Shown: positions 31,724 through 48,679 of the stretch, one piece after another
Position numbering within the stretch: position 1 is the first letter of the stretch
Layout: each line of letters opens with the position of its first letter
Program-made: the position numbers and the translations under genes
The notes under the pieces: model-generated
What the model saw: the letters and a program-made list of their open reading frames with translations, nothing else
Database searches by the model: none
Told to the model about the DNA's origin: nothing
Assembly: GCF_016772415.1 (NCBI RefSeq)
Contig: NZ_JAGSGD010000001.1
Span: 2,939,501 to 3,003,500 of the forward strand
Length of the DNA stretch: 64,000 bases
Source: Phenylobacterium glaciei
GTDB lineage: Bacteria > Pseudomonadota > Alphaproteobacteria > Caulobacterales > Caulobacteraceae
Reading direction: 5' to 3'

Positions 31724-31781
31724 CTCCGTAGCACTACTTAAGGGGCTGACCCGAATGTCAGTCGAGGCGCGAACGCCCTAG
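31724..31781 (+). promoter_or_regulatory. Candidate FixJ-type promoter of fixK
   Basis: Three elements upstream of fixK: CTCCGTAG (31724-31731), GAATGTCAG (31753-31761) and CCTAG (31777-31781). Their offsets from the ATG (88, 59 and 35 bp) are the same, base for base, as those of CTCCGTAG, GAATTTCGG and CCTAG ahead of the alternative oxidase gene at 48710. Over the first 38 bp 25 positions agree. FixJ activates fixK in related bacteria, which makes FixJ the likely binder. Confidence 0.6.
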
Positions 31782-31811
31782 CCATGGATCATCGATCAAG
31801 GGAACTTGCTG

Positions 31812-32474
31812 ATGACCCAGACGCACCGCCTCGACGACACCACCGCCCCCTTCATGCCCGGCCCACGAGCTGCGGCAGACGACCTCATGATGAGCCTGGG
31901 CGTGCGGATGACCTTCGCCAAGGATGAGGAGATCTATGGCCAGGATGAGAAGGCCGACCTGATCTACCGCGTCATCAGCGGCGCGGTGCGCACCACCCGG
32001 GTCATGAGCGACGGGCGGCGGCAGATCGGCGGCTTCTACTACCCCGGCGAGATGTTCGGCGTGGAAGCCAGCGACCACCACCGCTTCTCGGCCGAAGCGC
32101 TCAGCGACGGCATCATCCTGGTGGTGAAGGCCTCGGCCCTGCGCGCGGTGGCGGGCGACGAGGCGTTCGGACGGCTGACCTGGACGGCCACCAATCGTGA
32201 ACTGGACCGCACCCAGGATCATCTGCTGCTTCTGGGCCGCAAGACCGCGGCGGAACGGGTGGCGAGCTTCCTGATGGAGCTTGCCGATCGGCGAGGCGCC
32301 GAGGCGGTGACCCTGCCCATGGGCCGCCAGGACATGGCCGACTATCTGGGCCTGACCATCGAGACGGTCTCGCGGATGCTGACCCAGCTCCAGAGCGCCC
32401 TGGTGGTGGAGTTCTTAGGGTCGCGCATCTTCAAGATCAGCAACCGCTGCGCCCTGGCCCGCCTGGCCGACTAG
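31812..32474 (+). CDS. fixK: FixK, CRP/FNR-family regulator of micro-oxic genes
   Basis: A 220-residue CRP/FNR regulator. The cNMP-like beta-roll (residues 25-130) has GQDEKADLIYRVISGAVRTTRVMSDGRRQIGGFYYPGEMFG. The HTH is GRQDMADYLGLTIETVSRMLTQLQ, with the E-x-V-S-R readout that recognises TTG half sites. The N-terminal Cys cluster of true FNR is absent, so oxygen is not sensed directly; control is through FixLJ. ATG 31812 is chosen, with AAGGGA upstream. Matching TTG-N8-CAA boxes lie ahead of seven nearby transcripts. Confidence 0.92.
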   Translation: MTQTHRLDDTTAPFMPGPRAAADDLMMSLGVRMTFAKDEEIYGQDEKADLIYRVISGAVRTTRVMSDGRRQIGGFYYPGEMFGVEASDHHRFSAEALSDGIILVVKASALRAVAGDEAFGRLTWTATNRELDRTQDHLLLLGRKTAAERVASFLMELADRRGAEAVTLPMGRQDMADYLGLTIETVSRMLTQLQSALVVEFLGSRIFKISNRCALARLAD

Positions 32475-32484
32475 GGTTTCGCCG

Positions 32485-32500
32485 GCGGCGGACGCCGCCA
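32485..32500 (+). terminator. Hairpin downstream of fixK
   Basis: GGCGGC-GGAC-GCCGCC is a perfect 6-bp stem with a 4-nt loop 11 bp after the fixK stop. No T-run follows. Confidence 0.45.
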
Positions 32501-32582
32501 GCGCTCACATCCAGAGCCTGATCGGTTCATGAGTCACGTTTCAGCCGGGACCGCGACGCGGTTCCGTCTAAAACGATATGCT

Positions 32583-33419
32583 CTAGTGAGAGATGAGCAA
32601 GGCTGTCGGCGGGTCGCTGACCATGTCGTGGCTTACCCCGCCCAACACCAGTTCCTGCACCCGATTGCGGCCGTAGAGGCCCATCACCACCAGGTCGATA
32701 TCCAGAGCCTTCACGTGCCCGCGCAGGATCGCCGCGGCCGAGGCGTCGTGGCTGCGGTCCACGATGACCTTGGCTTCGCGGCCATGCCGTTCCAGGTGGC
32801 GCTGCAGCAGGCCGTCGGCCCCGCCCTCGCCCTGCGGCGACACCACCAGGATGTGAACCTGCTCCGCACCCATCACCAGCGGCCAGGCGTCGTGCAGGGC
32901 CCGGGCAGACTCGCGTGTGCCTTTCCAGGCGATCAGCACCCGTTTGCCGACATCCCGCGTGACCCCGTGCTCGGGGACCACCAGGACCGGGCCGCCGCTC
33001 GTCAGCCCCAGGTCCGCCGCGCTGATGGTGTGCTGGCCGAGGGGCGCGCAGGCGATCGTGGGAAAGATGGTGAGGTCGGATCGTCGGGCGCAGGCGGCCA
33101 TGGGGGCGGTGAAATCGCCATCGATCACCATCCACTCCGAGGACACCCCGACCTTGGCCGTGGCGCTCTCGAAGATCTCGCGGCCCCGCTCCGCGGCCTT
33201 CAGAACCGCCGAGGCGTGGTCCTTCAGGATGGAGTCGATGTCACTGGGAGACATATAGGCCAAGGCTTCCCCGGCCATGTAATTGTGCAGGAACGCGCTC
33301 TTCAGGAAGACCCCGCTCACGTGCGCGTTGGAGCGCAGAGCAAGTTCGGCCGCGGCGGTGGCCCGGGCCGAGGACGCCGGCGTGTCATCGATATGAACGA
33401 GGATATCGCGATAGGTCAT
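32583..33419 (-). CDS. Universal stress protein, tandem UspA domains
   Basis: A 278-residue tandem Usp protein. The first domain starts YRDILVHIDDTPASSAR; the second starts KRVLIAWKGTRESARAL and ends with LVVMGLYGRNRVQELVLGGVSHDMVSDPPTALLISH. The ATP-binding G-x-x-G-x9-G-S/T loop is close in the second domain (MGLYGRNRVQELVLGGVSH). ATG 33419 is preferred, with GGAGG 7 nt ahead. A perfect FixK box lies 51 bp upstream, so it is expected under micro-oxia. A second Usp gene follows upstream on the same strand. Confidence 0.9.
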   Translation of the reverse strand: MTYRDILVHIDDTPASSARATAAAELALRSNAHVSGVFLKSAFLHNYMAGEALAYMSPSDIDSILKDHASAVLKAAERGREIFESATAKVGVSSEWMVIDGDFTAPMAACARRSDLTIFPTIACAPLGQHTISAADLGLTSGGPVLVVPEHGVTRDVGKRVLIAWKGTRESARALHDAWPLVMGAEQVHILVVSPQGEGGADGLLQRHLERHGREAKVIVDRSHDASAAAILRGHVKALDIDLVVMGLYGRNRVQELVLGGVSHDMVSDPPTALLISH

Positions 33420-33469
33420 AGGGTCGCCTCCGGTTTTCATCATCCTGTCGCGGGGCCGGGCGGGTCGCC

Positions 33470-33483
33470 TTGATCCCCGTCAA
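33470..33483 (-). promoter_or_regulatory. FixK/FNR box for the first Usp gene
   Basis: TTGATCCCCGTCAA, a full match to TTG-N8-CAA with GAT/GTC inner bases. Its centre at 33476.5 would set a start near 33435, 16 bp before the ATG. Confidence 0.8.
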
Positions 33484-33490
33484 CGCCCCG

Positions 33491-34339
33491 TCAGTGAGAC
33501 ATCAGGACGGGAAGTTGGGCCCGGCGCAGCATGTGCTCGGTGGCCCCGCCCAGGATCATTTCGCGCAGCCGGGAATGGCCGTAGGCGCCCATCACCATCA
33601 GGTCGGCCTGCGTCCGGCTCAGATAGGTGTCCAGCACTCGGCTGATGAACTCGCCCTGGGCGTCCACCTCGTCGATGGCCGTCTCAATCCCATGGGCCTG
33701 AAGATGGCGGGCGGCGTCCTGGGCGAGACCTGCGGTCGCAGAGGCCTTTTCATTGAGGATGGTCAGGACCCGGACCTGGCGCATGCCCCGCAGGATCGGC
33801 AGGGCGTCGGCCATGGCGCGCGCCGCGGGCACGCTACCGTCCCAGGCCAGCACCGCCACGCCGCCGGTCAGCTTCGCGGACGCCTTGGCCTCGCTCCGCA
33901 TCACCAGGGCCGGGCGGCCGGAATGGAAGATCACCGCCTCGGCCACCCCCTCCTGGCCATCCATGCCGCTGGCGAGAGGCACGATGCAGAGGTCGCGGGC
34001 GCGCGCCCTGCGGGCGACGTGGAAGGCGAAGTCCGGCAGCTGGACCTGCTCCAGCAGCACGCCCCGGAACACGCCGGTGGCCTCAGCCCGCGCCTTGAAG
34101 CGGTCCAGCACGTGGCGGCAGGCGGCCAGGCTGCGAGCCTCCTCCTCCCGCGCCATGCCGGTCAGGCCGATCAGGCGTTCGGCGATGATGTTGCTCTTCA
34201 CCGGGATCGAGATGGGCATGGCCAGGGCCGTGATCTGGGCGCCCAGTCGCGCGGCGACCTGCACCGCGGCGTCTATGGCGGCGTCCGAGGTCGGCTCCGG
34301 ATAGGTATCGATGTGTAGCAGTATGTCTTGCAGGCTCAT
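33491..34339 (-). CDS. Universal stress protein, tandem UspA domains
   Basis: A 282-residue tandem Usp protein paralogous to the neighbour. First domain LQDILLHIDTYPEPTSDAAIDAAVQVAARLGAQITALA; second VAVLAWDGSVPAARAMADALPIL and LMVMGAYGHSRLREMILGGATEHMLRRAQLPVLMSH with a well-conserved ATP loop G-x-x-G-H-S-R-x5-G-G-A-T. It ends 7 bp before the FixK box of the next gene. GGAG precedes ATG 34339. Confidence 0.9.
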   Translation of the reverse strand: MSLQDILLHIDTYPEPTSDAAIDAAVQVAARLGAQITALAMPISIPVKSNIIAERLIGLTGMAREEEARSLAACRHVLDRFKARAEATGVFRGVLLEQVQLPDFAFHVARRARARDLCIVPLASGMDGQEGVAEAVIFHSGRPALVMRSEAKASAKLTGGVAVLAWDGSVPAARAMADALPILRGMRQVRVLTILNEKASATAGLAQDAARHLQAHGIETAIDEVDAQGEFISRVLDTYLSRTQADLMVMGAYGHSRLREMILGGATEHMLRRAQLPVLMSH

Positions 34340-34387
34340 GATGGCTCCGATGTTCCGATAGACTTCTCGCCCCGGCGGACGGCCGCC

Positions 34388-34401
34388 TTGACCTAGCGCA
34401 A
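34388..34401 (-). promoter_or_regulatory. FixK/FNR box for the second Usp gene
   Basis: TTGCGCTAGGTCAA on the minus strand (plus strand TTGACCTAGCGCAA). It overlaps the 3' end of the preceding microprotein frame. Centre 34394.5 predicts a start at about 34353, 14 bp ahead of the Usp ATG. Confidence 0.72.
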
Positions 34402-34518
34402 GCCCGGTCGCGATCCCGGCCAGCTGAGCAGACTCACGGGGATAGCCGCCGCGACGCTGACCAGCAGCAACCCGACCAGACCCGCCGGCGTCTCCGGCAA
34501 GCGCCTGGTGTCGCTCAC
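34393..34518 (-). CDS. 41-residue membrane microprotein
   Basis: GTG 34518 to TAG 34393 encodes 41 residues with one hydrophobic helix (AGLVGLLLVSVAAAIPVSLL) and a short basic/Pro-rich tail. The start GTGA overlaps the stop of the 38-residue gene before it, so the two form a coupled pair. Its 3' end overlaps the FixK box of the Usp gene. No family recognised. It may be real because of the coupling and the promoter; a chance frame cannot be excluded. Confidence 0.5.
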   Translation of the reverse strand: MSDTRRLPETPAGLVGLLLVSVAAAIPVSLLSWPGSRPGLR

Positions 34519-34631
34519 TTGCCGGCTTTGTCGTCGCCCATGGAGCGCAGCCGCCCATACGCGAGCGCCACGATGAAGCTCACGAAACCGGCGATGACCA
34601 TGGCGAGATAGGGGGTGATGTGACTGAACAT
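34515..34631 (-). CDS. 38-residue membrane microprotein under a FixK box
   Basis: ATG 34631 to TGA 34515. The sequence starts MFSHITPYLAMVIAGFVSFIV, one membrane helix, then a short charged tail GRLRSMGDDKAGK. GGAG stands 8 nt upstream. A perfect FixK box lies 53 bp upstream, with a predicted start near 34649. The size and topology resemble accessory micro-subunits of cbb3 and bd oxidases (CcoM, CydX), but I see no sequence motif that proves that relation. It lies on the same strand as, and about 14 kb from, the cbb3 operon it may serve. Confidence 0.65.
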   Translation of the reverse strand: MFSHITPYLAMVIAGFVSFIVALAYGRLRSMGDDKAGK

Positions 34632-34683
34632 GTGTGTGCTCCAAACTGTCCGGTCACCTTGTACGACGGCATCGTGACCCGCC

Positions 34684-34697
34684 TTGATCGAGGTCAA
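34684..34697 (-). promoter_or_regulatory. FixK/FNR box for the microprotein pair
   Basis: TTGATCGAGGTCAA on the plus strand; the reverse is TTGACCTCGATCAA, a perfect TTGAY-N4-RTCAA box. It overlaps the stop of the Rap1a-like gene and is the only promoter signal seen for the microproteins. Confidence 0.8.
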
Positions 34698-35050
34698 TCA
34701 GGCTGGACCGCCCGGCAACCGTACTCTGCCTGAGCCGCCTGGCGGATCGCATCGGCCGCGGCCTCGGGCCGGTTCCTTGGATCACGCGTCAACCGGGTCA
34801 TGATGGCGTCGCGCATCGCTTCGGCGGTCACGCCCTTGGGCAGGCAGATGGTGTGCCGAGCGGCGGAGCGGCGCGCCTGGCGCGCCAACAGCTGGTCCAT
34901 CGCCCCCACCAGATAGCCGAGACACAGGGCTGAGGCCTCATCCTGCGGCTCGCACAGCACGGCCAGATCGGCGGCGCTCATGAAGCCCTGGACGCTCGGG
35001 GACGGCGCCGGGATCGCCGTCACCAGCGAGAGAATAAGGAGCCAAGCCAT
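34694..35050 (-). CDS. Rap1a/Tai-like small exported protein
   Basis: A 118-residue protein with a signal peptide (MAWLLILSLVTAIPAPSPS). The mature part has Cys and motif positions of the Rap1a/Tai family: SAADLAVLCE, ASALCLGYLVGAMDQLL, HTICLPKGVTAEAMRDAIMTRL and AAQAEYGCRA. In Serratia, Rap1a/Tai proteins are immunity factors, but most homologues have no T6SS link, and none is nearby. It shares a divergent promoter with hemA that carries two FixK boxes. ATG 35050 has a weak ribosome site. Confidence 0.65.
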   Translation of the reverse strand: MAWLLILSLVTAIPAPSPSVQGFMSAADLAVLCEPQDEASALCLGYLVGAMDQLLARQARRSAARHTICLPKGVTAEAMRDAIMTRLTRDPRNRPEAAADAIRQAAQAEYGCRAVQPD

Positions 35051-35084
35051 GGCCGAGGACTCACATCCCCGGCGCCTCGTCGCC

Positions 35085-35098
35085 TTGATCCATCGCAA
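35085..35098. promoter_or_regulatory. FixK/FNR box 1 between the Rap1a-like gene and hemA
   Basis: TTGATCCATCGCAA, matching TTG-N8-CAA. It is nearer the Rap1a-like gene. The two boxes in this 132-bp divergent region are 16 bp apart centre to centre. Confidence 0.65.
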
Positions 35099-35100
35099 GC

Positions 35101-35114
35101 TTGACCCAGATCAA
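35101..35114. promoter_or_regulatory. FixK/FNR box 2, likely driving hemA
   Basis: TTGACCCAGATCAA, a perfect box. For hemA, centre 35107.5 predicts a start near 35149, 34 bp before ATG 35183. In the other direction it predicts a start near 35066 for the Rap1a-like gene. Confidence 0.8.
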
Positions 35115-35182
35115 GGGCACGGCTTCCAGGACGTCTCATTGGAGAGCCGGGCAGAGTTGGCCCGGCAATGCGAGCTTGCGAC

Positions 35183-36412
35183 ATGGATCTCAGGGCCCCC
35201 TTCCGACGCGCCATGGAGCAGATCCATGCCGAGGGACGTTATCGGGTCTTCGCCGACCTGAAGCGTCACCGTGGACAGTTCCCGCGAGCGACCTGGACGC
35301 GTGAGGACGGGGTCTCCTCAGACGTCATCGTCTGGTGCTCCAACGACTATCTCGGCCAGGGCCAGAACCCGGTCGTCCTCGACGCCATGCATCAGGCCAT
35401 CGATGAGGCCGGCGCAGGCTCGGGCGGCACGCGCAACATTTCCGGCACCACCCACTACCATGTCGAGCTGGAGGCCGAGCTGGCTGACCTGCACGGCAAG
35501 GAAGCCGCCCTGCTGTTCACCTCCGGCTATGTGTCCAACGAGGCGTCGCTCTCGACCCTCTACAAGATCCTGCCGGGTCTGATCATGTTCTCCGACGAGC
35601 TCAACCATAACTCGATGATCAGCGGCATCCGGGCCGGCAAGCGCGAGCAGCGCCGGGTGTTCCGCCACAACGACCTGGCCCATCTCGAAGAGCTGCTGAT
35701 GCAGGTCCCGCTGGACGCGCCCAAGGTGATCGCTTTCGAGAGCGTCTACTCCATGGACGGCGACATCACCGACATGCGGGCGATGGTGGCCCTGGCCAAG
35801 ACGTACAACGCCATGACCTACCTGGACGAAGTCCACGCGGTGGGCATGTACGGCCCCCGCGGCGCGGGCGTGGCCGAGCGTGACGGCGTCATGGACCAGA
35901 TCGATATCATCGAAGGCACGCTCGCCAAGGGCTTCGGCGTCATGGGCGGCTATATCGCCGCCGACGCGGTGATCGTCGATGCGATCCGCTCCTATGCCGA
36001 CGGCTTCATCTTCACCACCTCGATCCCGCCGGCCCTGGCGGCCGGCGCCGTGGCCTCGATCCGCTATCTCAAGGACCACAACGAGATCCGCATCGCCCAT
36101 CAGGAGCGCGCCGCCGCCCTGAAGGCCAGGCTGACCAAGGCCGGCCTGCCGGTCATGCCCTCGGAGAGCCACATCGTTCCGGTGCTGGTGGGTGATCCCG
36201 TCCACTGCAAGATGATCAGCGACATCCTGCTGGAAGAGCATGGCGTCTACGTCCAGCCGATCAACTATCCCACTGTCCCCCGCGGGACCGAGCGCCTGCG
36301 CTTCACCCCCTCGCCCGCCCACACCGACGCCATGATGGACGACCTGGCCCAGACGCTGGAAATGCTGTGGACGCGTTGCAACATCGCCCGTATGGGCGGC
36401 CTGGCCGCCTGA
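35183..36412 (+). CDS. hemA: 5-aminolevulinate synthase
   Basis: A 409-residue PLP enzyme that condenses glycine with succinyl-CoA to 5-aminolevulinate, the first step of alphaproteobacterial heme synthesis. The PLP Lys is about residue 249 in [14 protein letters not shown]. The glycine-rich [16 protein letters not shown], the [14 protein letters not shown] substrate loop and the cofactor Asp in [12 protein letters not shown] are all intact. ATG 35183 is chosen because homologues start at MD-x-RxxF; ATG 35168 adds five residues. Upstream FixK boxes couple heme supply to the cbb3 oxidase. Confidence 0.96.
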
Positions 36413-36425
36413 ACCCCGCCATACA

Positions 36426-36447
36426 CTTGGCCCTTGCGTGGGCCAAG
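36426..36447 (+). terminator. Hairpin after hemA
   Basis: CTTGGCCC-TTGCGT-GGGCCAAG is a perfect 8-bp stem with a 6-nt loop, 13 bp after the hemA stop and 21 bp before fixL. No T-run follows. It likely reduces read-through into fixL. Confidence 0.6.
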
Positions 36448-36468
36448 CGGGCGGCCTAGCCCAGATGA

Positions 36469-37965
36469 ATGCGAATGTCGCTCCCCGGCCTGCAGACACG
36501 GTCTATCGGTGCGGTTCTAAGCGGCTATGGGGGCGCGGCCCTGCTCTCGGGCCTGGCCATCGCCGCCCGCTGGGCCCTGACGCCGATTTTCCAGGACCGG
36601 CCATTCTTCCTGCTGTTCATGCCGGCGGTGATCGTCAGCGCGGCCCTCTGGGGACCCGGGCCCGCGCTGCTGGCCACCGCCCTCACCCTGGCCGCCGGAG
36701 TCGCGCTCAGCGGGATCACCCTGCTCTCTCATCCGGCCGACCTGATCAACGCCCTGCTGTTCCTGTTGATGGGCCCCGCCATCGCCTATGGCGGCTGGCG
36801 ATTGCGGCGGCAGACCGGCCAGACCACAGACGCTCTGGTTCACTTGGGCGAGCGCGAGGCGCACCTGCGCTCCATTCTCGACACCGTGCCCGACGCCATG
36901 GTGGTGATCGACGAGCACGGGGTGATGCAGTCCTTCAGCACCACCGCTGAGCGGCTGTTCGGATGGCGCGAGGACGAGGTTATCGGAGGCAATGTCAGCA
37001 TGCTGATGCCCCAGCCCTACCGCGACGCCCATGACAGCTATCTGCTGCGATACCTGACCACCGGCGAGCGGCGCATCATCGGCATAGGCCGGGTGGTGGT
37101 GGGCGAGCGCAAGGACGGCTCCACCTTTCCCATGGAGCTTTCGGTGGGGGAGATGCAGTCCCAGTCCGAGCGCTTCTTCACCGGCTTCGTCCGGGACCTG
37201 TCCGAGAGCCAGGCCACCGAACGACGGCTGCAGGATCTGCAGGCCGAGCTGGTGCATGTCTCGCGCCTGACCGCCTTGGGCGAGATGGCCTCGGCCCTGG
37301 CTCACGAACTGAACCAGCCGCTGTCGGCCATCGCCAACTACGTGAAGGGGTCGGTCCGTATCCTCGACCAGGACCAGCCTGACGCCGCCAAGGTCCGCAA
37401 CGCCCTGGTCTTGGCCGGCGATCAGGCCCTGCGCGCCGGCGAGATCATCCGGCGACTTCGCGACTTCGTCTCCAAGGGTGAGTCCGAACGGCGGGTCGAG
37501 CCCCTGGCCAAGCTGATCGAGGAGGCTGGCGCCCTGGCGATGATCGGCGCCAAGGAAACCGGTGTCAGGGTCAACTTCCAAATCTCGCCCGAGGTCCCCT
37601 ACGTCCTGGCCGACAAGGTGCAGGTGCAGCAGGTCCTGCTGAACCTGATGCGCAACGCCATCGAAGCGATGCAGGAGAGCCCGCGGCGTGAGCTGACGGT
37701 GGCCTCCGCGCCCGGTGATGACGATACGGTGGTCATCCGGGTGATCGACACCGGCTCGGGCATCGCGCCCGAGGTCGCCGCCCGCCTGTTCCAGCCTTTC
37801 GTCACCAGCAAGGTCAGCGGCATGGGCGTCGGGCTTTCCATTTCGCGCACGATCATCGAAGCTCACGGCGGTCGCATCTGGGCCGAGCCCGCGCCCGGCG
37901 GCGGGACCATCTTCTCATTCACCCTGCGAACGATCCCCGAGGAGGAACTGAACGGTGGCGTCTGA
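36469..37965 (+). CDS. fixL: FixL, heme-PAS oxygen sensor histidine kinase
   Basis: A 498-residue kinase. Membrane helices occupy residues about 15-110, then a PAS domain with the FixL heme-ligand motif: His188 in [13 protein letters not shown], and [12 protein letters not shown] with the ligand-gating Arg. HisKA has [19 protein letters not shown], and the HATPase has [22 protein letters not shown] and [19 protein letters not shown]2 binding to heme shuts the kinase off, so FixJ is phosphorylated under low oxygen. It overlaps fixJ by 11 bp. Confidence 0.96.
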
Positions 37966-38563
37966 GGCTCTCGTGCATGTGATCGACGACGACGACGCCA
38001 TGCGCGATTCTCTGTCCTTCCTGCTGGAGAGCGCCGGGTTCGAGGCGCGCGCCTACGACTCGGCCACCGCCTTCATCGAGGGCGCCGCCCGCCTGTCTGG
38101 GGGCTGCATCGTCACCGACGTGCGGATGCCCGGCATGAACGGCCTGGAGATGACCCGCCATCTGAAGGCCCTGCATGTCGACCTGCCCATCATCATGATC
38201 ACCGGCCACGGCGACGTGCCCCTGGCCGTGGAGGCCATGAAGGCCGGCGTCGCCGACTTCCTGGAAAAGCCCTTCGACGACGACGCGCTCCTGCGCGCGA
38301 TCCGCATGGCCATCGACCAGGCCAAGCCGGGCGCCGCCCGCGTTGGGGCCGAACCCTTCCAGACGCTTCTGGCCAGCCTGTCGCCGCGGGAGACCGAGGT
38401 CCTGCGCGGTGTGGTGGAGGGCAAGGCCAACAAGGTGATCGCCTTCGAGCTCGGCATCAGCCCCCGCACGGTGGAGGTCTATCGGGCCAATGTGATGACC
38501 AAAACCGGCGCCTCGGGCCTCTCTGAATTGATCCGGATGGCGCTGACGGCTGGGTTCGACTGA
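37955..38563 (+). CDS. fixJ: FixJ, response regulator of the oxygen-limitation response
   Basis: A 202-residue regulator. Receiver: [14 protein letters not shown], phospho-Asp55 in [22 protein letters not shown] and [10 protein letters not shown]. The C-terminal LuxR-type HTH is [45 protein letters not shown]. It starts at GTG 37955 inside fixL, so the two are coupled. In known systems it activates fixK; the candidate target promoters here are at 31724 and 48622. Confidence 0.96.
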
Positions 38564-38575
38564 TCGCCGGCGTGA

Positions 38576-38589
38576 TTGCGCTGCATCAA
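38576..38589 (+). promoter_or_regulatory. FixK/FNR box for the FixT-like gene
   Basis: TTGCGCTGCATCAA, matching TTG-N8-CAA. Centre 38582.5 predicts a start near 38624, 17 bp ahead of the TTG start at 38641. It begins 13 bp after the fixJ stop. Confidence 0.68.
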
Positions 38590-38640
38590 GGCGGCCCTTC
38601 CATAGGCGACTAGACTCTCCAGATCGTCTGGAGACCAGCC

Positions 38641-39018
38641 TTGCCGCCGCCCTCGCCGTTTACCCGCAATGTGGTCCTCGTCGATGACGACAGCGCCCTG
38701 CGGCTGGCCCTGACCTTCATGCTGGAACTCGACGGATTCGCCGTCACCGCGCTGGACAGCGGCGAGGCGCTCCTGCTGTCGGACCTGCCCGCGGCGCCGG
38801 TCTGCCTGGTCCTGGATCAGAACCTGAGCGGGCTGACGGGGCTGGAAGCGCTGGCCGCCCTGCGCGCCAAGAACGAGCACTTGCCCGCCTTGCTGATCAC
38901 CAGCCACCCGCGCCCCAGCATCCGCGAGACGGCCGCCCTCCTCGGCGCGGTGATCGTCGAGAAGCCGCTGCTGGGGGACTCCCTCAACGCCGCGATCAAC
39001 GCCGCGATGCTTCTCTGA
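38641..39018 (+). CDS. Single-domain response regulator, FixT candidate
   Basis: A 125-residue stand-alone receiver. The acidic pocket is VVLVDDDSALRL, phospho-Asp59 is in CLVLDQNLSGLTG, LLITSHPRP has the conserved Thr, and IVEKPLLG the Lys. There is no output domain. The start is TTG 38641 with GGAG 7 nt upstream. In Caulobacter, FixT is a FixK-activated single-domain receiver that inhibits FixL. The position directly after fixLJ and the own FixK box fit that role; sequence identity to FixT was not tested. Confidence 0.8.
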   Translation: MPPPSPFTRNVVLVDDDSALRLALTFMLELDGFAVTALDSGEALLLSDLPAAPVCLVLDQNLSGLTGLEALAALRAKNEHLPALLITSHPRPSIRETAALLGAVIVEKPLLGDSLNAAINAAMLL

Positions 39019-39028
39019 GCCCCACTCT

Positions 39029-40648: not shown

Positions 40649-42816
40649 CGGCCGGCCTTGTGCATGCGCAGGGCGTTGAGGGTCACCACCAGGGATGAGC
40701 CCGACATGGCCAGGGCCGCGACAAAGGGATTGATCAGGCCCAGCATGGCGGCCGGCGCCGCGATCAGGTTGTAGAGCGCCGAGAAGCCGAAGTTCTCCAG
40801 GGCTCGGCGGCGCGCGGCGCGCGCCACGTCGATGGCCGTGACCACCGCGCCAAGGCCTTCGCCGGAAAAGACCAGGTCGGCCGCGTTCTGGCTGGCGTCC
40901 AACGCCGTCCCGGGCGCCATGGCGGCGTGGGCGACGGCCAGGGCGGCGGTGTCGTTCAGGCCGTCGCCGACCATCAGGGACCTGTGGCCCACCGTGGCCA
41001 GGCTCTCGACCCAGGCGGCCTTGTCGGCCGGCGTCATGCCCGCCCGCCACTGCCGTATGTCCAGGGCCTCGGCCACCGCGCCCACCGCGCCCGGCAGATC
41101 GCCGGAGAGAATTTCGACGCTCAGTCCACGGGCCCGCAAGGCGTCGACGGTCTGGCGCGCATCGGGACGCAGGGTGTCTGCGAACTGAAAGCGGATCTTG
41201 GTGTCCCCCTCGAAGGCGAACCACAGCTCGGTTTCCGAGCCCGACGCGTCCTCGATCCCAACAAAGGACCCCCGGCCGAGACGGGCGCGGCGGCCGTGGA
41301 TCACGCCTTCCACGCCCTGGCCGGTGGTCTCCACCACATCTTCGGCCAGCTCCGTCCTGCCGTCCTGCGCCGCCAGGGCGCGGGCCAGGGGATGGGACGA
41401 GGCCCGGGCAAGGGGGGCGGCCAGGGCCACGGCCGACGGTATCGGATCGATGAGGGTCGGCCGACCCAGGGTCAGGACCCCGGTCTTGTCGAAGACCACG
41501 TGGGTCACCTCGGCCAGCCGCTCCAGCGCCGCGCCGGACTTCACCAGCACTTGCCTGCGGAACAGTCGCGCCGAGGCGGCGACCTGCACGGCCGGAACCG
41601 CCAGGCCCAGGGCGCAGGGACAGGTGATGATGAGGACCGCGACCGCCCGCAGCAGCGCCTCGCGCGGGCCAAGGCCTAACCCCCAGCCCAGAACGAAGGT
41701 CAGGGCCGCGGCGGTGTGAACCACCGGCACATAGATGGCCGCGGCGCGGTCGGCGAGACGGACATAGCGGGACTTCGATTGCGCGCCCGCCTCCACCAGC
41801 CGCGCGATGGCGGCCACGGCGGAATCGTCGGAGCGGGCCTGGGCGCGCACGGTGAGCAGGCCCGACAGGTTCAGCGCCCCGGCCTTGCACAGCGCGCCGG
41901 GGGCGACGGCGACGGGCCGCGACTCCCCGGTGAGCAGAGCGTTGTCGAGTTCGGAGACGCCTGCCTCGATGCGGGCGTCCACCGGCAGGCGCTCGCCCGG
42001 CCGAACCAGGATCAGATCCCCCACCGCGATCTCCGCCAGGGGCCGGCGATGCTGGACGCCGTCGGCGGTCAGGACCGTGGCGGCCGGCGCCTGCATGGCC
42101 AGCAGATCGGCGGCCGCGCCGCGGGCCTTGCTCCGCAGTTTGTGGTCCAGCCAGCGCCCGATCAGCAGCAGGAACAGCAGCGAAATAGCGGCGTCGAAAT
42201 AGGTGTCTCGGCCGTGCAGCAGGGTCTCGGCGAAGCTGATCCCCAGGGTCAGGATCACCCCGATGGAGATCGGCACGTCCATGTTGGCGCGTCCCACCCG
42301 CAGCGAGCGCCAGGCCGACTGGAAGAAGGGCATGCCGGCATAGATCGCGCAGGGGGTGGCGATCAGGCCGCTCGCCCATTGCATCATGATCAGGGCGGCC
42401 GGACCCAACTCCTGGCCAAACAGGCCCGCCCAGATCGGCACTGAGAACATCATGGCGTTGCCGGCCCCGAAGGCCGCGACGCCGAGCGCCAGGGTCAGCC
42501 GGCGGCCCTCACGGTCCTGGGCGGCGGCGGCCTGGCCCGGATCGTAGGGCGCGGACTCGTAGCCCAGCTTCTCCAGGGTGGACATCACCCGGCCGGGATC
42601 GCCGGACCGGCCCTCGAAGGCCACCGACAGCTTGCCGCTGGTGAGGTTCAGGCGGGCGCTGCGGACCCCCGGGAGGGCGGCCACCCCGGTCTCGATCTTG
42701 GCCATGCAGGCCGCGCAGCGCGCGCCCTTCACCAACAGGTCGAAGGTGGCCCCGCCGTCCTTGGCGGGCTTCAGGAAGGCCGAATAGTCCGGCGCGGCGT
42801 CGTAGGTCAGCGCCAT
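40645..42816 (-). CDS. ccoI: CcoI, copper-transporting P1B-type ATPase for cbb3 assembly
   Basis: A 723-residue copper pump. HMA domain with CAACM near residue 33; membrane CPC motif in VLIITCPCALGLAVPAVQ; phosphorylated Asp in VVFDKTGVLTLGRP; SLMVGDGLNDTAALAVAHAAMAPG in the P-domain. The N-terminal region and length match CcoI/FixI rather than CopA detox pumps. It supplies copper to the CcoN active site. It overlaps ccoH by 10 bp and ccoS by 4 bp. Confidence 0.95.
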   Translation of the reverse strand: MALTYDAAPDYSAFLKPAKDGGATFDLLVKGARCAACMAKIETGVAALPGVRSARLNLTSGKLSVAFEGRSGDPGRVMSTLEKLGYESAPYDPGQAAAAQDREGRRLTLALGVAAFGAGNAMMFSVPIWAGLFGQELGPAALIMMQWASGLIATPCAIYAGMPFFQSAWRSLRVGRANMDVPISIGVILTLGISFAETLLHGRDTYFDAAISLLFLLLIGRWLDHKLRSKARGAAADLLAMQAPAATVLTADGVQHRRPLAEIAVGDLILVRPGERLPVDARIEAGVSELDNALLTGESRPVAVAPGALCKAGALNLSGLLTVRAQARSDDSAVAAIARLVEAGAQSKSRYVRLADRAAAIYVPVVHTAAALTFVLGWGLGLGPREALLRAVAVLIITCPCALGLAVPAVQVAASARLFRRQVLVKSGAALERLAEVTHVVFDKTGVLTLGRPTLIDPIPSAVALAAPLARASSHPLARALAAQDGRTELAEDVVETTGQGVEGVIHGRRARLGRGSFVGIEDASGSETELWFAFEGDTKIRFQFADTLRPDARQTVDALRARGLSVEILSGDLPGAVGAVAEALDIRQWRAGMTPADKAAWVESLATVGHRSLMVGDGLNDTAALAVAHAAMAPGTALDASQNAADLVFSGEGLGAVVTAIDVARAARRRALENFGFSALYNLIAAPAAMLGLINPFVAALAMSGSSLVVTLNALRMHKAGR

Positions 42817-43292
42817 GTCAGCCGCCGCTCGGCCTCGAAGCGCGCGCCGGCGCGGTCGTGCGCCACCAGGCTCATGTCCCAGGCCCCGCTCAGGCCGCCG
42901 GGCCGGGCCGCATAGATTCCGGGCGCGGTCTCGGCCAGGAAGGCGTTCTTGCGGCCCGTCTCGGTGGCCGGGCGCTCAAGCTTCACCGCGACCTTGAGCC
43001 CGCTCACCGGACGGCCCGTCCGGTCCCGGAAGGTCACCACCACGGCGCCGTCGTCCCCGGCCTGCGCGGCCGCGCGCCAGCCGAGGCGCTCCTGGGCGTT
43101 AAGCTGGGCGAGCTTGGCGTTGTAGGCGACCCCGTCCTCGTAGGGTGTGCGCGAGACCTCGCCGGGAAAGGTGCGGATCGCCATCACCGTGAACCCGACA
43201 TTCACCGCGATGATGACGCCGAAGAAGGCCACGAAGATGCCCAGGACGTGCAGGCCGTTCAACTGGAAGGGCTTGTGCGGGATGTCGGTCAT
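42807..43292 (-). CDS. ccoH: CcoH, cbb3 assembly protein
   Basis: A 161-residue FixH/CcoH family protein. One N-terminal membrane helix (HVLGIFVAFFGVIIAVNVGFTVMAI), then FPGEVSRTPYEDGVAYNAKLAQLNAQERLGW, which is the FixH-type block, and a beta-rich periplasmic domain. It associates with the cbb3 complex. It overlaps ccoG by 4 bp at its 5' end. Confidence 0.92.
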   Translation of the reverse strand: MTDIPHKPFQLNGLHVLGIFVAFFGVIIAVNVGFTVMAIRTFPGEVSRTPYEDGVAYNAKLAQLNAQERLGWRAAAQAGDDGAVVVTFRDRTGRPVSGLKVAVKLERPATETGRKNAFLAETAPGIYAARPGGLSGAWDMSLVAHDRAGARFEAERRLTWR

Positions 43293-44785
43293 GGCGCGTT
43301 CGCGGCTCCCGAGAGGAAGTTGGTCTTGACGGTCATGGCGTCGCGCCCGGCCCGCGCCGCGAAGACGGCGGGCATGTTGGGCGCCGCGATGGCGGCGGCC
43401 GGGACGGTGACGAACACCCGCACGGCGCGGACTTGGTTGGGCTCCACACGCACGCTGAGGGTCTCGCCGGCCGCCTTGTCGCCTGGGGTGCGCAGTTTGG
43501 CGCCCACCGGCCCGGCGAAGGCCACCTGGACGTCCTGCGCCTCGAAGCCACGGTTCGCGATCTTGAGGGTGTAACCGTCGCGGATGGCCCCGTCGTGCAG
43601 GCGCACGAACATCGGGTTTCTGTCCCGCAGGACGTGGACGTCCAGGGCGCTGCGGTGGGTCAGGCCCCAGATCATCAGGCCGCTCACCAGGGTCAGGGCC
43701 ACAGCGTAGTAGGCGGTCCTGGGTCGCAGCAGCTTGTAAACCGGCGTCTGCCGCATCTCGCGGGCGGCCACCGCCGCATCGGTGTCATAGGCGATCAGGC
43801 CGCGCGGCCGCTCGACCTTGTCCATGATCTCGTCGCAGGCGTCGATGCAAAGGCCACAGTTGATGCACTCCAGCTGCGAACCGTCGCGGATGTCGATGCC
43901 CATGGGGCAGACGACGACGCAGGCGTGGCAGTCGATGCAGTCGCCGCGCCCCTCCCAGGTCTGGCCCTTCTTGTGGGGCCCGCGGGCCTCGCCCCGGTCG
44001 CGCAGATAGGTCACCTGCAGGGAGTGCTCGTCCAGCATGGCGCCCTGGATGCGCGGCCACGGGCAGAGATAGACGCAGACCTGTTCGCGCATGAAGCCGG
44101 CGAAGGCGTAGGTGGTCGCGGTCAGCAGGGCGCAGAAGATGTAGGCCGTGGCCGGAGCCTGGCCGATCCAGAAGTGGGTGATCAGGGTGGGCGCGTCGTG
44201 GAAGTAGAAGATCCACGCCCCGCCGGTCCCAAAGCCGATGGCGAGCCAGACAGCGTGCTTGCCGATCTTGCGCCAGGCCTTGTCGAAGGACCATGGCGCG
44301 GCGTCCAGCTTCATGCGGGCATTGCGGTCGCCCTCGAAGGCGCGCTCCACATAGATGAAGAGGTCGGTCCAGACCGTCTGCGGGCAGGCGTAGCCGCACC
44401 ACAGCCGGCCGAACAGGGCGCTGACCAGGAACAGGGCCAGGGCCCCCATCACCAGCAGGCCGGTGATGAAATAGACCTCCTGCGGCCAGAGCTGGATGCC
44501 GAAGAAGTAGAACCGCCCACCGGCGAAATCGACCAGCACCGCCTGGTCCGGCAGGGCGCCGGGGCGCTCCCACCGGATCCAGGGGGTGACGTAGTAGATC
44601 GTCAGCATGACGATCATCAGGATCCACTTGATCCGCCGCCACTGGCCGTGGACCAGCTTGGGATAGATCGGGGTCCGGGGCTTGTAGAGGCCCAGGGTGA
44701 ACCCCTTGGCTCGCGCCGTGGCCGCAGCCGAGACAGGCCCCGTCTTGGGAGCTTCGGGCTTGGTCCGATCAATGACGACGGTCAT
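43289..44785 (-). CDS. ccoG: CcoG, membrane ferredoxin-like protein for cbb3 assembly
   Basis: A 498-residue polytopic protein. Two 4Fe-4S ferredoxin motifs lie at CIDCHACVVVCPMGID and CINCGLCIDACDEIM; an early YACPQTVW motif is typical of the family. A periplasmic Ig-like C-terminal domain follows. CcoG reduces Cu(II) to Cu(I) during cbb3 assembly in Rhodobacter. ATG 44785 is 6 nt after the ccoP stop. Confidence 0.95.
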   Translation of the reverse strand: MTVVIDRTKPEAPKTGPVSAAATARAKGFTLGLYKPRTPIYPKLVHGQWRRIKWILMIVMLTIYYVTPWIRWERPGALPDQAVLVDFAGGRFYFFGIQLWPQEVYFITGLLVMGALALFLVSALFGRLWCGYACPQTVWTDLFIYVERAFEGDRNARMKLDAAPWSFDKAWRKIGKHAVWLAIGFGTGGAWIFYFHDAPTLITHFWIGQAPATAYIFCALLTATTYAFAGFMREQVCVYLCPWPRIQGAMLDEHSLQVTYLRDRGEARGPHKKGQTWEGRGDCIDCHACVVVCPMGIDIRDGSQLECINCGLCIDACDEIMDKVERPRGLIAYDTDAAVAAREMRQTPVYKLLRPRTAYYAVALTLVSGLMIWGLTHRSALDVHVLRDRNPMFVRLHDGAIRDGYTLKIANRGFEAQDVQVAFAGPVGAKLRTPGDKAAGETLSVRVEPNQVRAVRVFVTVPAAAIAAPNMPAVFAARAGRDAMTVKTNFLSGAANAP

Positions 44786-44791
44786 GGCGGG

Positions 44792-45658
44792 CTACTGACC
44801 GCCGGCGTTGGCATGGACGTAGACGGCCAGCGCCTTGATGGTCTCTGGGCTGAAGCGCGCCTCCCAGGTCGGCATCACCCCGCCACGGCCGTTCCAGATC
44901 TGGCCGCGGATGTCCGTCCGTTCAGGACCGTACAGCCAGTCGGCGTCGGTCAGGTCGGGCGCCCCCAGGGTGACATTGCCCTTCCCCTGCGGCCCGTGAC
45001 AGGCGACGCACTGCTCGGCGAACACAGGGGCGGCTCGCGCCACGGCGGCGGCATTGGCCGGACGCCGCGAGAGGGCGACCACGTATTCGGTCAGATCGTC
45101 GATCTGAGCCGGCTGCAGGATCTGGTCACGGCCGAAGGACGGCATCTGCGACTGGCGGGCGTGCGGGTTGTCGGAGCGCACCCCTACCTGGATGGTGTGC
45201 TGGATATCCTCCAGGCTGCCGCCCCAGAGCCAGACGTCGTCGCGCAGGTTGGCGTAGCCCTTGGACCCCGTGCCGCCGACGCCATGACAGGTGGCGCAGT
45301 TGTCGCCGAACACCGACTGACCGACGGCCAGGGCGTAGGCCTGCAGCTTAGGATCGGACTCGATGGTCTCCAGAGACGCTGTGCGCAGCATCGCCCCCTC
45401 GGCCCCGCGCAGGTGTTGCAGGGTCTCCAGCTGCTTGGCCACTTCGACGCGGTCGGACTGATGCAGCACGCCCTTGGCGTAGGAATGCATCCCCGGCCAG
45501 GACGGCATCAGCACCCAGTAGATCGCCGCGATGACGATGCAGCCGTAGAAGATGTAGAGCCACCAGCGGGGCAGAGGATTGTCCAGCTCACGGATGCCAT
45601 CCCACTCGTGGCCGGTGTCCTCGACGCCGGAATGTTCGTCGGTTTCACGGTTGGACAT
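44792..45658 (-). CDS. ccoP: CcoP, diheme cytochrome c subunit of cbb3 oxidase
   Basis: A 288-residue protein. One membrane helix (PRWWLYIFYGCIVIAAIYWVL) preceded by WDGIRELDNPLP, then two cytochrome c domains with CATCH and CVACH heme sites and distal Met ligands such as QSQMPSFG and GGVMPTW. GAGGA lies ahead of ATG 45658. It passes electrons to CcoO. Confidence 0.97.
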   Translation of the reverse strand: MSNRETDEHSGVEDTGHEWDGIRELDNPLPRWWLYIFYGCIVIAAIYWVLMPSWPGMHSYAKGVLHQSDRVEVAKQLETLQHLRGAEGAMLRTASLETIESDPKLQAYALAVGQSVFGDNCATCHGVGGTGSKGYANLRDDVWLWGGSLEDIQHTIQVGVRSDNPHARQSQMPSFGRDQILQPAQIDDLTEYVVALSRRPANAAAVARAAPVFAEQCVACHGPQGKGNVTLGAPDLTDADWLYGPERTDIRGQIWNGRGGVMPTWEARFSPETIKALAVYVHANAGGQ

Positions 45659-45824
45659 GGTCGTCCTCACTGTCCTCCAGCGGCAGAGCCGCGAGGCGTT
45701 TGAAGGTCTCGTTGTGACGGGGCCAGAGGGCGTAGATCACCCCGATGAAGAAGAGGACGCCGAAGTAGACGGTGCCCCCCTGCTGGGCGAAGCGGGCGAC
45801 CGCCTCGTAGGACAGGCCGCTCAT
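45645..45824 (-). CDS. ccoQ: CcoQ, small subunit of cbb3 oxidase
   Basis: A 59-residue protein starting [20 protein letters not shown], with one membrane helix ([16 protein letters not shown]) followed by [17 protein letters not shown], a typical CcoQ tail. It overlaps ccoO by 4 bp (ATGA) and ccoP by 14 bp. It stabilises the complex and the CcoP association. Confidence 0.92.
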
Positions 45825-46558
45825 CTTTGGTTCTCCGGGTCTTCCGCGTGATAGGTCCGGAAGTCCACCAGCCCGCCCAGCATCTGCAGATAGGCGATCA
45901 GGGCGTCCATCTCGGTCAGCCGGTCCGGATCGCCGTCGAAATCGCGCTGGGCGATCTTGGCGCCGTAGCGCTTCTTCAGGGCGGTGGCCCGGCTGTCGAA
46001 GGGATCGGCCTGGGCCTCCAGATCATCCGTCGCGTGGTCGATCTGGTCCTGGGTATAGGGGACGCCCACCCGGGTCATGGCCGAGAGCTTGGCCTGGACG
46101 TCCCGGTAGTCGAGGTCCTTGTCGCGCAGGAAGGCGTAGGGCGGCATCACCGACTCCGGCACCACCGAACGCGGATCGGTCAGGTGGTCCTTGTGCCAGC
46201 TGTCGGAATACTTGCCGCCGACCCGTGCGAGGTCGGGCCCGGTGCGCTTGGAGCCCCACTGGAAGGGGTGGTCGTACATGCTCTCGGCCGCCAGGCTGTA
46301 GTGGCCGTAGCGTTCGACCTCGTCGCGCAGCGGGCGGATCATCTGCGAGTGGCAGACGTAGCAGCCCTCGCGAATGTAGATGTCGCGGCCCTCAAGCTCG
46401 AGGGGGGTGTAGGGACGCATCCCGTCGACCTTCTCCACCGTGCTCTCCAGGTAGAAGAGCGGCGAGATCTCCACGAGGCCGCCGATGGAGACGACGACGA
46501 CGATGCCGATGATCATCCAGAGCGAGTGACGCTCGAAGTTGGCGTGTTTTTTCCACAT
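45821..46558 (-). CDS. ccoO: CcoO, monoheme cytochrome c subunit of cbb3 oxidase
   Basis: A 245-residue protein. N-terminal membrane helix ([21 protein letters not shown]), then the heme c site [14 protein letters not shown], the family block [36 protein letters not shown], and a C-terminal [12 protein letters not shown]. One heme c. Confidence 0.97.
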
Positions 46559-46570
46559 GGTCAGGGCCCC

Positions 46571-48229
46571 CTACGCCGCCGCCGCGAGGGCGGGCAGCGA
46601 GGCCAGGCCTTGAGGCTGGGCCTCATGACCCGGCATCCTGATGGTCCGCCAAAGGTTGTAGGACATGATCACCGCGCCCGAGAGGTACATGAGCCCCCCG
46701 ACCGTGCGGATGATGTTCTCGACGTGCTTGGCTGCGACGGTCTCGACGAAGCTGTTGGCCAGGAACCCCTGCGGCGTGTACTCGCGCCACATCAGGCCCT
46801 CCATGATCCCGGAGACCCACATCGCGGCGATGTAGAGCAGGATGCCCGTCGTCGCGATCCAGAAGTGCCATTCAATCAGGGTGTTGGAGTAGATCCTGTC
46901 CTTCTTCCACAGCCACGGGACCATGCAGTAGACGGCTCCGAAGGAGATGAAGCCGACCCAGCCCAGCGCGCCGGAATGCACGTGGCCGATGGTCCAGTCG
47001 GTGTAGTGGGAGAGCGCGTTGACCTCCCGAAGGCTCATCAGCGGGCCCTCGAAGGTGGACATGCCGTAGAAGGCCAGGGCCACCACCATCATCCGGATGA
47101 CGGGATCGGTGCGCAGCTTGTCCCAGGCGCCCGAGAGCGTCATCAGGCCGTTGATCATGCCGCCCCAGGAGGGCATCCAGAGCATGATCGAGAAGGTGGC
47201 CCCCAGGGTCTGGGTCCACTGCGGCAGGGCCGTATAGTGCAGGTGGTGCGGGCCCGCCCAGATGTAGATGAAGATCAGCGACCAGAAGTGGACGATGGAC
47301 AGGCGGTACGAATAGACCGGCCGCTCGGCCCGCTTGGGCACGAAATAGTACATCATCCCCAGGAAGCCGGCGGTGAGGAAGAAGCCGACGGCGTTGTGGC
47401 CGTACCACCACTGCACCAGGGCGTCCTGGACCCCCGAATAGAGCGAGTAGCTGCGGTGGTTCAGCAGGCCCACCGGCAAGGCCATGTTGTTGACGATGTG
47501 CAGGATCGCCACGGTGATGATGAAGGCCAGATAGAACCAGTTGGCCACGTAGATGTGGGGCTCCTTGCGCTTCCAGATGGTGCCTAGGAAGACCAGCAGA
47601 TAGGCGACCCAGACCACGGCCAGCCAGAGATCCACGTACCACTCGGGTTCGGCGTATTCCTTCGACTGGGTGATCCCGGCCAGGTAGCCGGTGGCCGCCA
47701 GGACGATGAACAGCTGATAGCCCCAGAACACGAACCAGGGGGCGACGCCGCCGGCCAGACGGGCGCGGCAGGTGCGCTGGACGACCCAGAAGGAGGTGGC
47801 GATCAAAGCGTTGCCGCCGAAGGCGAAGATCACCCCGGAGGTATGCAGCGGGCGCAGGCGGCCGAAGTTCAACCAGCCGGCCTCGGGGAAGTAGAAGATG
47901 TTGGGCCAGGTCACCTGGGCGGCGATCAGCACACCGGCCAGCATGGCGACAATGGCCCAGAACATGGTGGCCACGACGCCCGCCCGGATCACGCCGTCGG
48001 CGTAGCGCGTGGGCTGGGAGCGGAACTTCCCGTAGGCGACCCCCGCGGTCATCACCCCGGCGGCCAGTACGAAGGCGGCCAGGAAGATGTAGCTGTGGAA
48101 GCGGAACAGGGGGTCCTGGGTGAAGGCCGCGGCAAGCAGCGCCGTGAAGGCCCCCACCCCTGTGAAGATGTAGAGCAGCACCACGTCGAACGGCGCGCCC
48201 TCATCATGTTGGACAGATAGTTGTGTCAT
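46571..48229 (-). CDS. ccoN: CcoN, catalytic subunit of cbb3 cytochrome oxidase
   Basis: A 552-residue heme-copper oxidase subunit I of type C with about 12 membrane helices. Heme b and b3 ligands: LRPLHTSGV and [10 protein letters not shown]. CuB ligands: HNAVGFF and GPHHLHY. The C-family Tyr crosslink position is near helix 7 ([13 protein letters not shown]). It reduces O2 to water with high affinity. Start 48229 has a perfect FixK box 61 bp upstream. It heads a transcript that runs through ccoS and possibly hemN. Confidence 0.97.
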
Positions 48230-48289
48230 CGATCCCCGACCCAAACTGCGAAGTTGGGTCCGCAATGGCGTGGATCGCGGCGGAGGGCT

Positions 48290-48303
48290 TTGACCGAGAT
48301 CAA
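48290..48303. promoter_or_regulatory. FixK/FNR box in the divergent ccoN / 48364 region
   Basis: TTGACCGAGATCAA, a perfect box midway between the two starts (67 bp from each). It predicts starts near 48255 for ccoN and 48338 for the plus-strand gene, so one box may serve both. Confidence 0.82.
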
Positions 48304-48363
48304 GGCCGTCAAACCGTCGCAGTCTCTTATGGGTCAAGCCGATCTCCGGCCGGAGCTAAAGAC

Positions 48364-48618
48364 ATGGCGCAGCCCGCCTCCCCCCGTCCCTCTCCCCTTC
48401 TGGCGGCCGCCGCCCTGCTCGGCGCCTCGGCCCTGGTGACCGGGACGATCGCCGCCGTCCATATGTGGCTGACCGCCCTGCGCGGGCCGATGTGCGGCCC
48501 CTCGGACGGCGGCCACTGCTGGGCCTGTTATGTGGCGCCGCTGCTGGCCATGACCGCCGTGACGGCCTGGCAAGCCCATCGCGGGCGCCTCACCCCGGTC
48601 TGGGCGCGGGCAAGGTAG
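48364..48618 (+). CDS. 84-residue Cys/His-rich membrane protein
   Basis: ATG 48364 has GGAG 9 nt upstream. Two hydrophobic segments (LLAAAALLGASALVTGTIAAVHMWL and CYVAPLLAMTAVTAW) flank a loop MCGPSDGGHCWAC with three Cys and one His, which could bind a metal or heme. It is divergent from ccoN with a shared FixK box. No family recognised. Confidence 0.72.
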   Translation: MAQPASPRPSPLLAAAALLGASALVTGTIAAVHMWLTALRGPMCGPSDGGHCWACYVAPLLAMTAVTAWQAHRGRLTPVWARAR

Positions 48619-48621
48619 AGC

Positions 48622-48679
48622 CTCCGTAGTCCCCCCTAGGGAGCGCTCCTGAATTTCGGCGACCGGTCGCCGGGCCTAG
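48622..48679 (+). promoter_or_regulatory. Candidate FixJ-type promoter of the alternative oxidase operon
   Basis: CTCCGTAG (48622-48629), GAATTTCGG (48651-48659) and CCTAG (48675-48679) lie 88, 59 and 35 bp before ATG 48710, the same offsets as in the fixK promoter (31724-31781). CTCCGTAG...CTAGGGAG also forms an imperfect palindrome, as expected for a dimeric LuxR-type HTH. Confidence 0.6.

Follow-up and report, generated by a model that had tools for sequence, protein, structure and literature searches.

A promoter resembling FixJ-dependent promoters precedes both fixK and the alternative oxidase gene in Phenylobacterium glaciei and many relatives

The window analyzed here is a stretch of 64,000 nucleotides from the genome of Phenylobacterium glaciei (Caulobacteraceae; 4,242,328 bases in 5 contigs, all of which were searched). 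Between 31.7 and 50.3 kb it carries an island of genes for microaerobic respiration, arranged in the order fixK, two Usp genes, hemA, fixL, fixJ, a FixT-like receiver gene, hemN, the cco genes of the cbb3 oxidase, aox (the gene of the alternative oxidase, a cyanide-resistant enzyme that consumes oxygen), a cytochrome c gene and a group III globin gene. The fixL and fixJ genes are placed between fixK and aox (36469-38563). Upstream of fixK and of aox the same promoter-like block is found, at identical distances from the two start codons. The features of the island are collected in Table 1.

Table 1. Features of the microaerobic-respiration island, with positions in the window.
Feature	Position	Strand	Remarks
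FixJ-type 16-mer palindrome, fixK promoter, TCCGTAGCACTACTTA	31725..31740	+	8/16 equal to S. meliloti FixJ site
-35-type element of fixK, GAATGTCAG	31753..31761	+	CSNAATWT-like; published CSNAATWT element
CCTAG of fixK	31777..31781	+	contains near-invariant TA of -10-like element
fixK	31812..32474	+	Crp/Fnr family; best NCBIfam match FixK of Caulobacter, under cut-off (219 of 300 bits)
fixL, haem-PAS histidine kinase	36469..37965	+	top NCBIfam match FixL, under its cut-off; His188, Arg208
fixJ, response regulator	37955..38563	+	above NCBIfam cut-off; sole match in host genome at E<=1e-55
FixT-like open reading frame, single receiver-like stretch	38641..39018	+	beside fixJ; labelled by position and size; 36% identity to FixJ receiver, 114 residues
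ccoN, cbb3 oxidase cluster	46571..48337	-	followed by ccoO, ccoP, ccoG, ccoI-type ATPase and ccoS, all minus strand
FixK/FNR-like box TTGACCGAGATCAA	48290..48303	+	one mismatch; between ccoN and small open reading frame before aox
FixJ-type 16-mer palindrome, aox promoter, TCCGTAGTCCCCCCTA	48623..48638	+	10/16 equal to S. meliloti FixJ site
-35-type element of aox, GAATTTCGG	48651..48659	+
CCTAG of aox	48675..48679	+	contains conserved TA of -10-like element
aox, alternative oxidase, frameshifted	48710..49407	+	PF01786; break between 48910 and 48913
small cytochrome c	49389..49775	+	downstream of aox
group III truncated haemoglobin	49821..50261	+	PDB 2ig3, E=1e-16; downstream of aox

The sequence CTCCGTAG starts at 31724 upstream of fixK and at 48622 upstream of aox, in both cases 88 bp before the ATG (31812 and 48710). 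GAATnTCnG starts at -59 in both promoters (31753 and 48651), and CCTAG at -35 (31777 and 48675). Over the first 38 positions the two regions align without gaps and are identical at 25, versus 50 of 91 from -88 through the ATG; the likeness is therefore concentrated in the elements. All these positions, and the count of 25 in 38, had been given in the original prediction and were found to be right on recounting. A second half-site (CTTAAGG / CCTAGGG), absent from that prediction, completes a palindrome within the block. A search of the 4.24 Mb genome for exact matches to CTCCGTAG-N20..24-GAATNTC gave two, at fixK and aox alone and not at many unrelated genes, and none in the reversed control, which bears out the earlier claim that such a match is unlikely to arise by chance. 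A looser version of the motif, allowing up to two mismatches, gave 6 genome matches versus 4 in the reversed control; fewer than two mismatches were found, genome-wide, only at fixK (none) and aox (one).

In a promoter alignment anchored on GAAT, the following bases are conserved: T-28, A-27, G-25, T or G-24 and A-23 in the left half of the palindrome, C-16, T-14, A-13 and G-11 in the right half, and, beyond the palindrome, CCC at -3 to -1, AAT at +1 to +3, T+5 and the pair T+26 A+27. The 16-mer from T-28 to A-13 is in register with the S. meliloti FixJ site TAAGTAATTTCCCTTA (identities in Table 1), and the distal site of one Caulobacter fixK gene is identical to it at 14 of 16 positions. Judged by sequence, the S. 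meliloti site, the class of sites obtained by systematic evolution of ligands by exponential enrichment (SELEX), GTAGTTTCCC, and the CSNAATWT element at -33, as given in PMC4999443, all fit the motif of fixK and aox. The aox copy of the latter element, CTGAATTT, and the fixK copy, CCGAATGT, each show a single deviation from CSNAATWT, T for S in aox and G for W in fixK. The GAATTTC of aox is spaced from the palindrome as in fixK, and is conserved in both promoter sets.

Expectation maximization on the -10 element of the fixK promoters gave mixed offsets, with only the TA at +26/+27 from GAAT firm. Were transcription to start about 7 bases after the -10-like element, at a predicted position about 24 bp before the ATG, the palindrome would be centred at about -56, within the published protected region from -69 to -44; for this reason CCTAG is best read as part of the -10 element. 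The shared block thus resembles a FixJ-dependent promoter, with a putative FixJ palindrome, GAATnTC as a -35-type element and a TA-containing -10 element; the palindrome, the CSNAATWT-like element and a genome with fixL and fixJ, by which membership among FixJ-activated promoters may be judged, are all present. The closest known counterpart is the FixJ-dependent fixK promoter of rhizobia and Caulobacter, which also has a palindrome some 56 bp before the inferred start, a CSNAATWT-like element at about -33, fixK as target and fixLJ in the genome; here, unlike there, the same promoter type also precedes aox.

In order to score the composite site, a 36-position matrix was seeded from the window fixK site and trained on 91 fixK upstream regions only (30 listed fixK loci, 60 fetched ones and the window, out of more than 91 loci listed). 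The site was selected in 90 of these 91 training regions. L124, the only region that failed, and L123, the weakest one accepted (9.7 bits), each belong to a genome that carries a second fixK-like gene; these other copies score 27.6 and 33.5 bits. Over the 127,930 positions scanned in the window, fixK ranked first with 39.9 bits and aox second with 34.7; the third-ranking position scored -0.7, leaving a gap of 35 bits. Since no aox region entered the training set, the aox score is independent of training, while that of fixK is not.

The PF01786 profile identified aox in 96 of 299 Caulobacteraceae genomes. The scored set comprised 92 aox rows, in which the window appears twice, for a total of 91 distinct loci and 90 relatives; the rows left out were those of genomes G144, G238, G210, G279 and G196, both pieces in G244 and G253, and the second copy in G240. 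A score of at least 12 bits was reached by 65 of the 92 rows (63 of the 90 relatives) versus 0 of 1,840 shuffles, produced by permuting two-base blocks, so that dinucleotides are kept only roughly. At 2 bits or more the site is found at 67 of the 90 relatives versus 10 of 1,840 shuffles, and at -2 bits or more, a threshold which admits one-base spacing variants seen by eye, at 69 versus 37 of 1,840. The latter threshold, like the FixJ threshold of 1e-80 used below, was set after the data had been seen. By group, sites of at least -2 bits precede 32 of 34 aox loci in Phenylobacterium, 22 of 23 in Caulobacter, 12 of 22 in Brevundimonas, 2 of 2 in group g4, 1 of 1 in g9, 0 of 1 in g8 and 0 of 7 in g14; for six of these last seven, the genome has no FixJ match at 1e-55. 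At this FixJ threshold, loci with and without the site number 68 and 15 in genomes with FixJ, and 1 and 6 in genomes without (Fisher p=5e-4, uncorrected for ancestry).

The site extends to a second order. Among the best 80 of 506 aox relatives in named genomes, scored within 260 bp upstream and with flanks of up to 3 kb, 67 carry a site of at least 2 bits versus 10 of 1,600 shuffles: 37 of 41 in Caulobacteraceae/Caulobacterales, 26 of 32 in Sphingomonadales and 4 of 7 in other taxa. A divergent fixL adjoins aox (within 1.2 kb) at 45 of the 67 site-bearing loci versus none of the 13 site-less ones; the corresponding figures are 25 and none for a truncated haemoglobin (trHb) match downstream of aox, and 12 and none for a single receiver. 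Distant fixLJ pairs, as in the window, are uncounted here, because the flanks reach 3 kb at most and some contigs end early. The haem-pocket His...Arg pair is kept in all 44 aox-adjacent FixL proteins in which the PAS domain is covered, as well as in the window FixL (H188, R208); we take these residues to be the haem ligand and the distal arginine, respectively. Over the 1,029,994 positions scanned at the named loci, 30 others exceeded the threshold: among them are several reverse images of the palindrome, sites before fixK-like genes or a micro-ORF (short open reading frame) described below, and a few that are unexplained. At four Brevundimonas-type loci (L238:5145, L242:5095, L248:4649, L250:4517) a fixK-like gene with a FixJ-type site is located about 1.6 kb behind aox.

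Ten sphingomonad genomes were searched with a Sphingomonas-type pattern, two mismatches being allowed at most; there were 11 matches, against none in the control. All are at aox: their positions place ten at known loci, and the eleventh belongs to a second copy of the gene. The pattern, which misses sites with another spacer, was written from these aox promoters, so that the scan is a test of specificity only, and not an independent discovery. The genus group of Sphingopyxis sp. 2PD includes 80 genomes, 26 with aox, for a total of 28 aox loci. Twelve of 25 scored loci have the site, all twelve with a fixL match within 1.5 kb, versus none of the 13 site-less loci within flanks of that size; the remaining three, for which only the site was scored, comprise two loci with a site and a fragment without, making 14 of 28 altogether.

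The distribution of the site beyond aox was analyzed by searching the 299 Caulobacteraceae genomes for a 32-base composite pattern derived from the fixK motif, with no mismatches allowed. The 84 sites listed, from 70 genomes, were sorted by position and first downstream open reading frame; the reversed-control columns are zero. Sites at fixK-type genes number 51 (43 at listed FixK places and 8 more, namely 6 full Crp/Fnr genes and 2 short open reading frames with only the cyclic nucleotide-binding part), and 9 are at aox, which this strict pattern under-counts, since aox sites are more diverged. Others precede hemN-type radical-SAM genes (4, found at loci L194, L195, L196 and L201), single receivers (3; L224, L225, L226), Usp genes (2; L219, L221), a fixL-type kinase gene (1; L214) and a pyrimidine-phosphorylase-type gene (1; L231); 6 have no gene assignment, and three of these look like coding sequence. 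The sites before hemN-type, Usp, receiver, fixL-type and pyrimidine-phosphorylase-type genes suggest that the FixJ regulon is wider than fixK. The last 7 sites are found before an open reading frame of 35-38 residues beside fixJ, six of them aligned and the seventh placed by position. At aox-fixLJ loci of the Phenylobacterium group (L070:3555-3790, L074, L076, L077, L064, L216) the site lies, measured from the start of the pattern, 81-85 bases before this frame, which is conserved, has one hydrophobic stretch and an upstream AGGAG, and is convergent with fixJ. By these features it is a possible FixJ-controlled membrane microprotein. A search of the host genome with the micro-ORF of the relatives gave no match, a result that shows little for a query of 35 residues.

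What the sequences show directly is the motif, where it lies, how widely it is conserved and how often fixLJ accompanies it. Taken together, these features make it highly probable that the FixL-FixJ system activates aox directly, in parallel to the path from FixJ through FixK to the cbb3 oxidase; the oxygen sensor FixL would thus probably control the alternative oxidase directly. FixJ had been put forward in the original prediction as the best candidate activator, and comparison strongly supports this choice: the same site recurs at fixK and aox across relatives, it is like the published sites, and fixLJ adjoins aox. From these data we infer the binding, activation, start site, co-transcription and physiology of the aox promoter, as follows. 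Low oxygen, and possibly nitric oxide (NO), would cause the haem-PAS kinase FixL to phosphorylate FixJ. Phosphorylated FixJ would bind the palindrome, whose centre is some 56 bp before the inferred start, and help RNA polymerase to use a weak -35 element (GAATnTC) and a weak -10 element containing CCTAG. One output would run through fixK to the cbb3 and haem genes by way of FixK boxes; the other, parallel to it, would lead directly to aox, perhaps together with the downstream cytochrome c and group III globin genes. The likely benefit would be a quinol oxidase still working when NO inhibits the haem-copper oxidases, or when oxygen fluctuates.

NO may act as a co-signal with oxygen. NO sensing by FixLJ has been published. 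For Sphingopyxis granuli TFA, two reports (PMC6472365, PMC7713065) put the induction of aox under anaerobiosis at 450-fold when nitrate was supplied, at 17-fold when it was not or when narG was mutated, and at 70-fold when NO was given without nitrate. This strong anaerobic and NO induction, and the FixJ-type site at half of the Sphingopyxis-group aox loci, liken that system to the present one; FixJ control, which is proposed here, is not proposed in the portions of those reports consulted. The aox gene of Vibrio fischeri is, according to PMC5156696 and PMC1274295, likewise a bacterial alternative oxidase gene under a gas-responsive (NO) regulator, NsrR; unlike the haem-kinase two-component system and FixJ-type promoter considered here, NsrR is a negative regulator from another family. 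A link between FixLJ and aox was not found in literature searches on alternative oxidase regulation, and, as subscription papers were mostly outside their reach, this is weak evidence of absence.

Several observations weigh against direct activation of aox by FixJ. In Caulobacteraceae, 23 of the 90 related aox loci score below 2 bits and 21 of these below -2 bits; 15 of the 21 sit in genomes with a FixJ match at 1e-55, so the link between FixJ and aox is not universal. The counts are uncorrected for shared ancestry. Thirteen of the 80 named aox loci are without the site, and the typical neighbours occur without it too: at L304 and L305, which have the same scores and layout, fixL lies some 1.5 kb before a site-less aox and a fixK-like gene stands between the two, and at L273, L310 and L311 a group III globin (trHb) match is found upstream of a site-less aox. 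In S. granuli TFA, the induction of aox by anaerobiosis disappeared in a fnrN-fixK double mutant and likewise in a narG mutant, and the authors take NO as the main signal (PMC7713065). The alternative oxidase is described as a low-affinity oxidase (PMC6431628), for which reason a purely low-oxygen trigger fits poorly. Finally, the aox gene of the window is itself frameshifted. As a separate observation, the fixK-like gene directly before the site-less aox at L304:2182 and L305:2182 has its own FixJ-type site, and read-through from it could reach aox.

The frameshift raises the strongest alternative, to which somewhat less than an even chance is given, namely that in this strain the promoter is a relict before a pseudogene from which no enzyme is made. 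The reading frame of aox changes between 48910 and 48913, through a one-base frameshift, and no intact frame is left; a search of the host genome for alternative oxidases found nothing beyond these two pieces, the longer of which scores 205 bits against PF01786 (cut-off 22.7). Yet both pieces together differ from the aox of relative L028 by 49 synonymous and 11 non-synonymous codons, and differences so largely synonymous indicate that the break is recent or an assembly error, two possibilities that would look the same. The aox promoter is also intact, and for the nearby fix, cco and hem genes the matches cover most of the profile. Intact aox copies are present in relatives, and the case for the promoter is independent of the frameshift.

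It is rather unlikely that FixK is the main activator of aox, acting at the box at 48290 with transcription reading through the small frame behind it, and that the FixJ-type site is secondary. The box, with one mismatch, is about 410 bp upstream of aox, and the fnrN-fixK double mutant of S. granuli TFA mentioned above lost aox induction, a loss which the authors ascribe to missing NO (PMC7713065). No FixK-like box is close to aox itself, however, and relatives have the FixJ-type site at aox genes with no ccoN nearby, a ccoN match being present at 2 of the 80 named loci (3 kb flanks). Direct control by a FixK box was rejected on the same ground: none adjoins aox, the nearest one-mismatch box being that at 48290. 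In the window, four such boxes were observed versus 0.30 expected (33470, 34684, 35101, 48290), and they are found near the two Usp genes, hemA and ccoN. The small frame (48364-48618) encodes 84 residues with two hydrophobic stretches, identified by eye, and is located between ccoN and aox, behind the box; a related sequence is present in L065.

Reading of the site by a different regulator of the NarL/FixJ family is still less probable. Members of this family share DNA-binding folds, and two site-bearing aox loci belong to genomes without FixJ at 1e-80, G199 (2.1e-78) and G284 (83% complete, none at 1e-55). Against this, a site of at least -2 bits is found at 67 of 77 loci with FixJ at 1e-80 versus 2 of 13 without, fixLJ adjoins aox in two orders, and the same site precedes fixK, an established FixJ target. 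Very improbable, too, is repression of aox by FixJ, which would have a precedent in the reported inhibition of nif expression by FixLJ in Rhodopseudomonas palustris (PMC13327599), whereas the site has the same position before the -35 element at aox as at FixJ-activated fixK. Chance, or a recent duplication of a promoter fragment within the genome, as two copies 17 kb apart in one genome might suggest, is practically dismissed by the genome-wide pattern searches, the confinement of the likeness to the elements and the recurrence of the site at aox in many genera.

Among the other features of the window, the group III truncated haemoglobin gene (Table 1) had no match in Pfam and NCBIfam searches.

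Direct activation of aox by FixJ would widen the FixJ regulon beyond fixK, the only gene at which, according to Tsoy et al. 2016, Caulobacterales consistently have conserved FixJ sites (PMC4999443). It also raises the question of why a low-affinity oxidase should be under a low-oxygen sensor. A further reading, given somewhat less than an even chance, is that FixLJ and aox, in many cases joined by a FixT-like receiver or a group III globin, form a conserved respiratory bypass module in Caulobacterales and Sphingomonadales, in which FixL would read NO as well as low oxygen; in many sphingomonads aox might be the main or only FixJ target, with FixLJ acting without the step from FixJ to fixK. If true, this module would explain the induction of aox by NO and anaerobiosis in Sphingopyxis. 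Little is known of how bacterial alternative oxidases are regulated and what they are for, NsrR in Vibrio fischeri being the worked example in the literature available, and a conserved FixJ-type promoter at aox would supply the name of a regulator and an exact site, and might account for the large inductions published.

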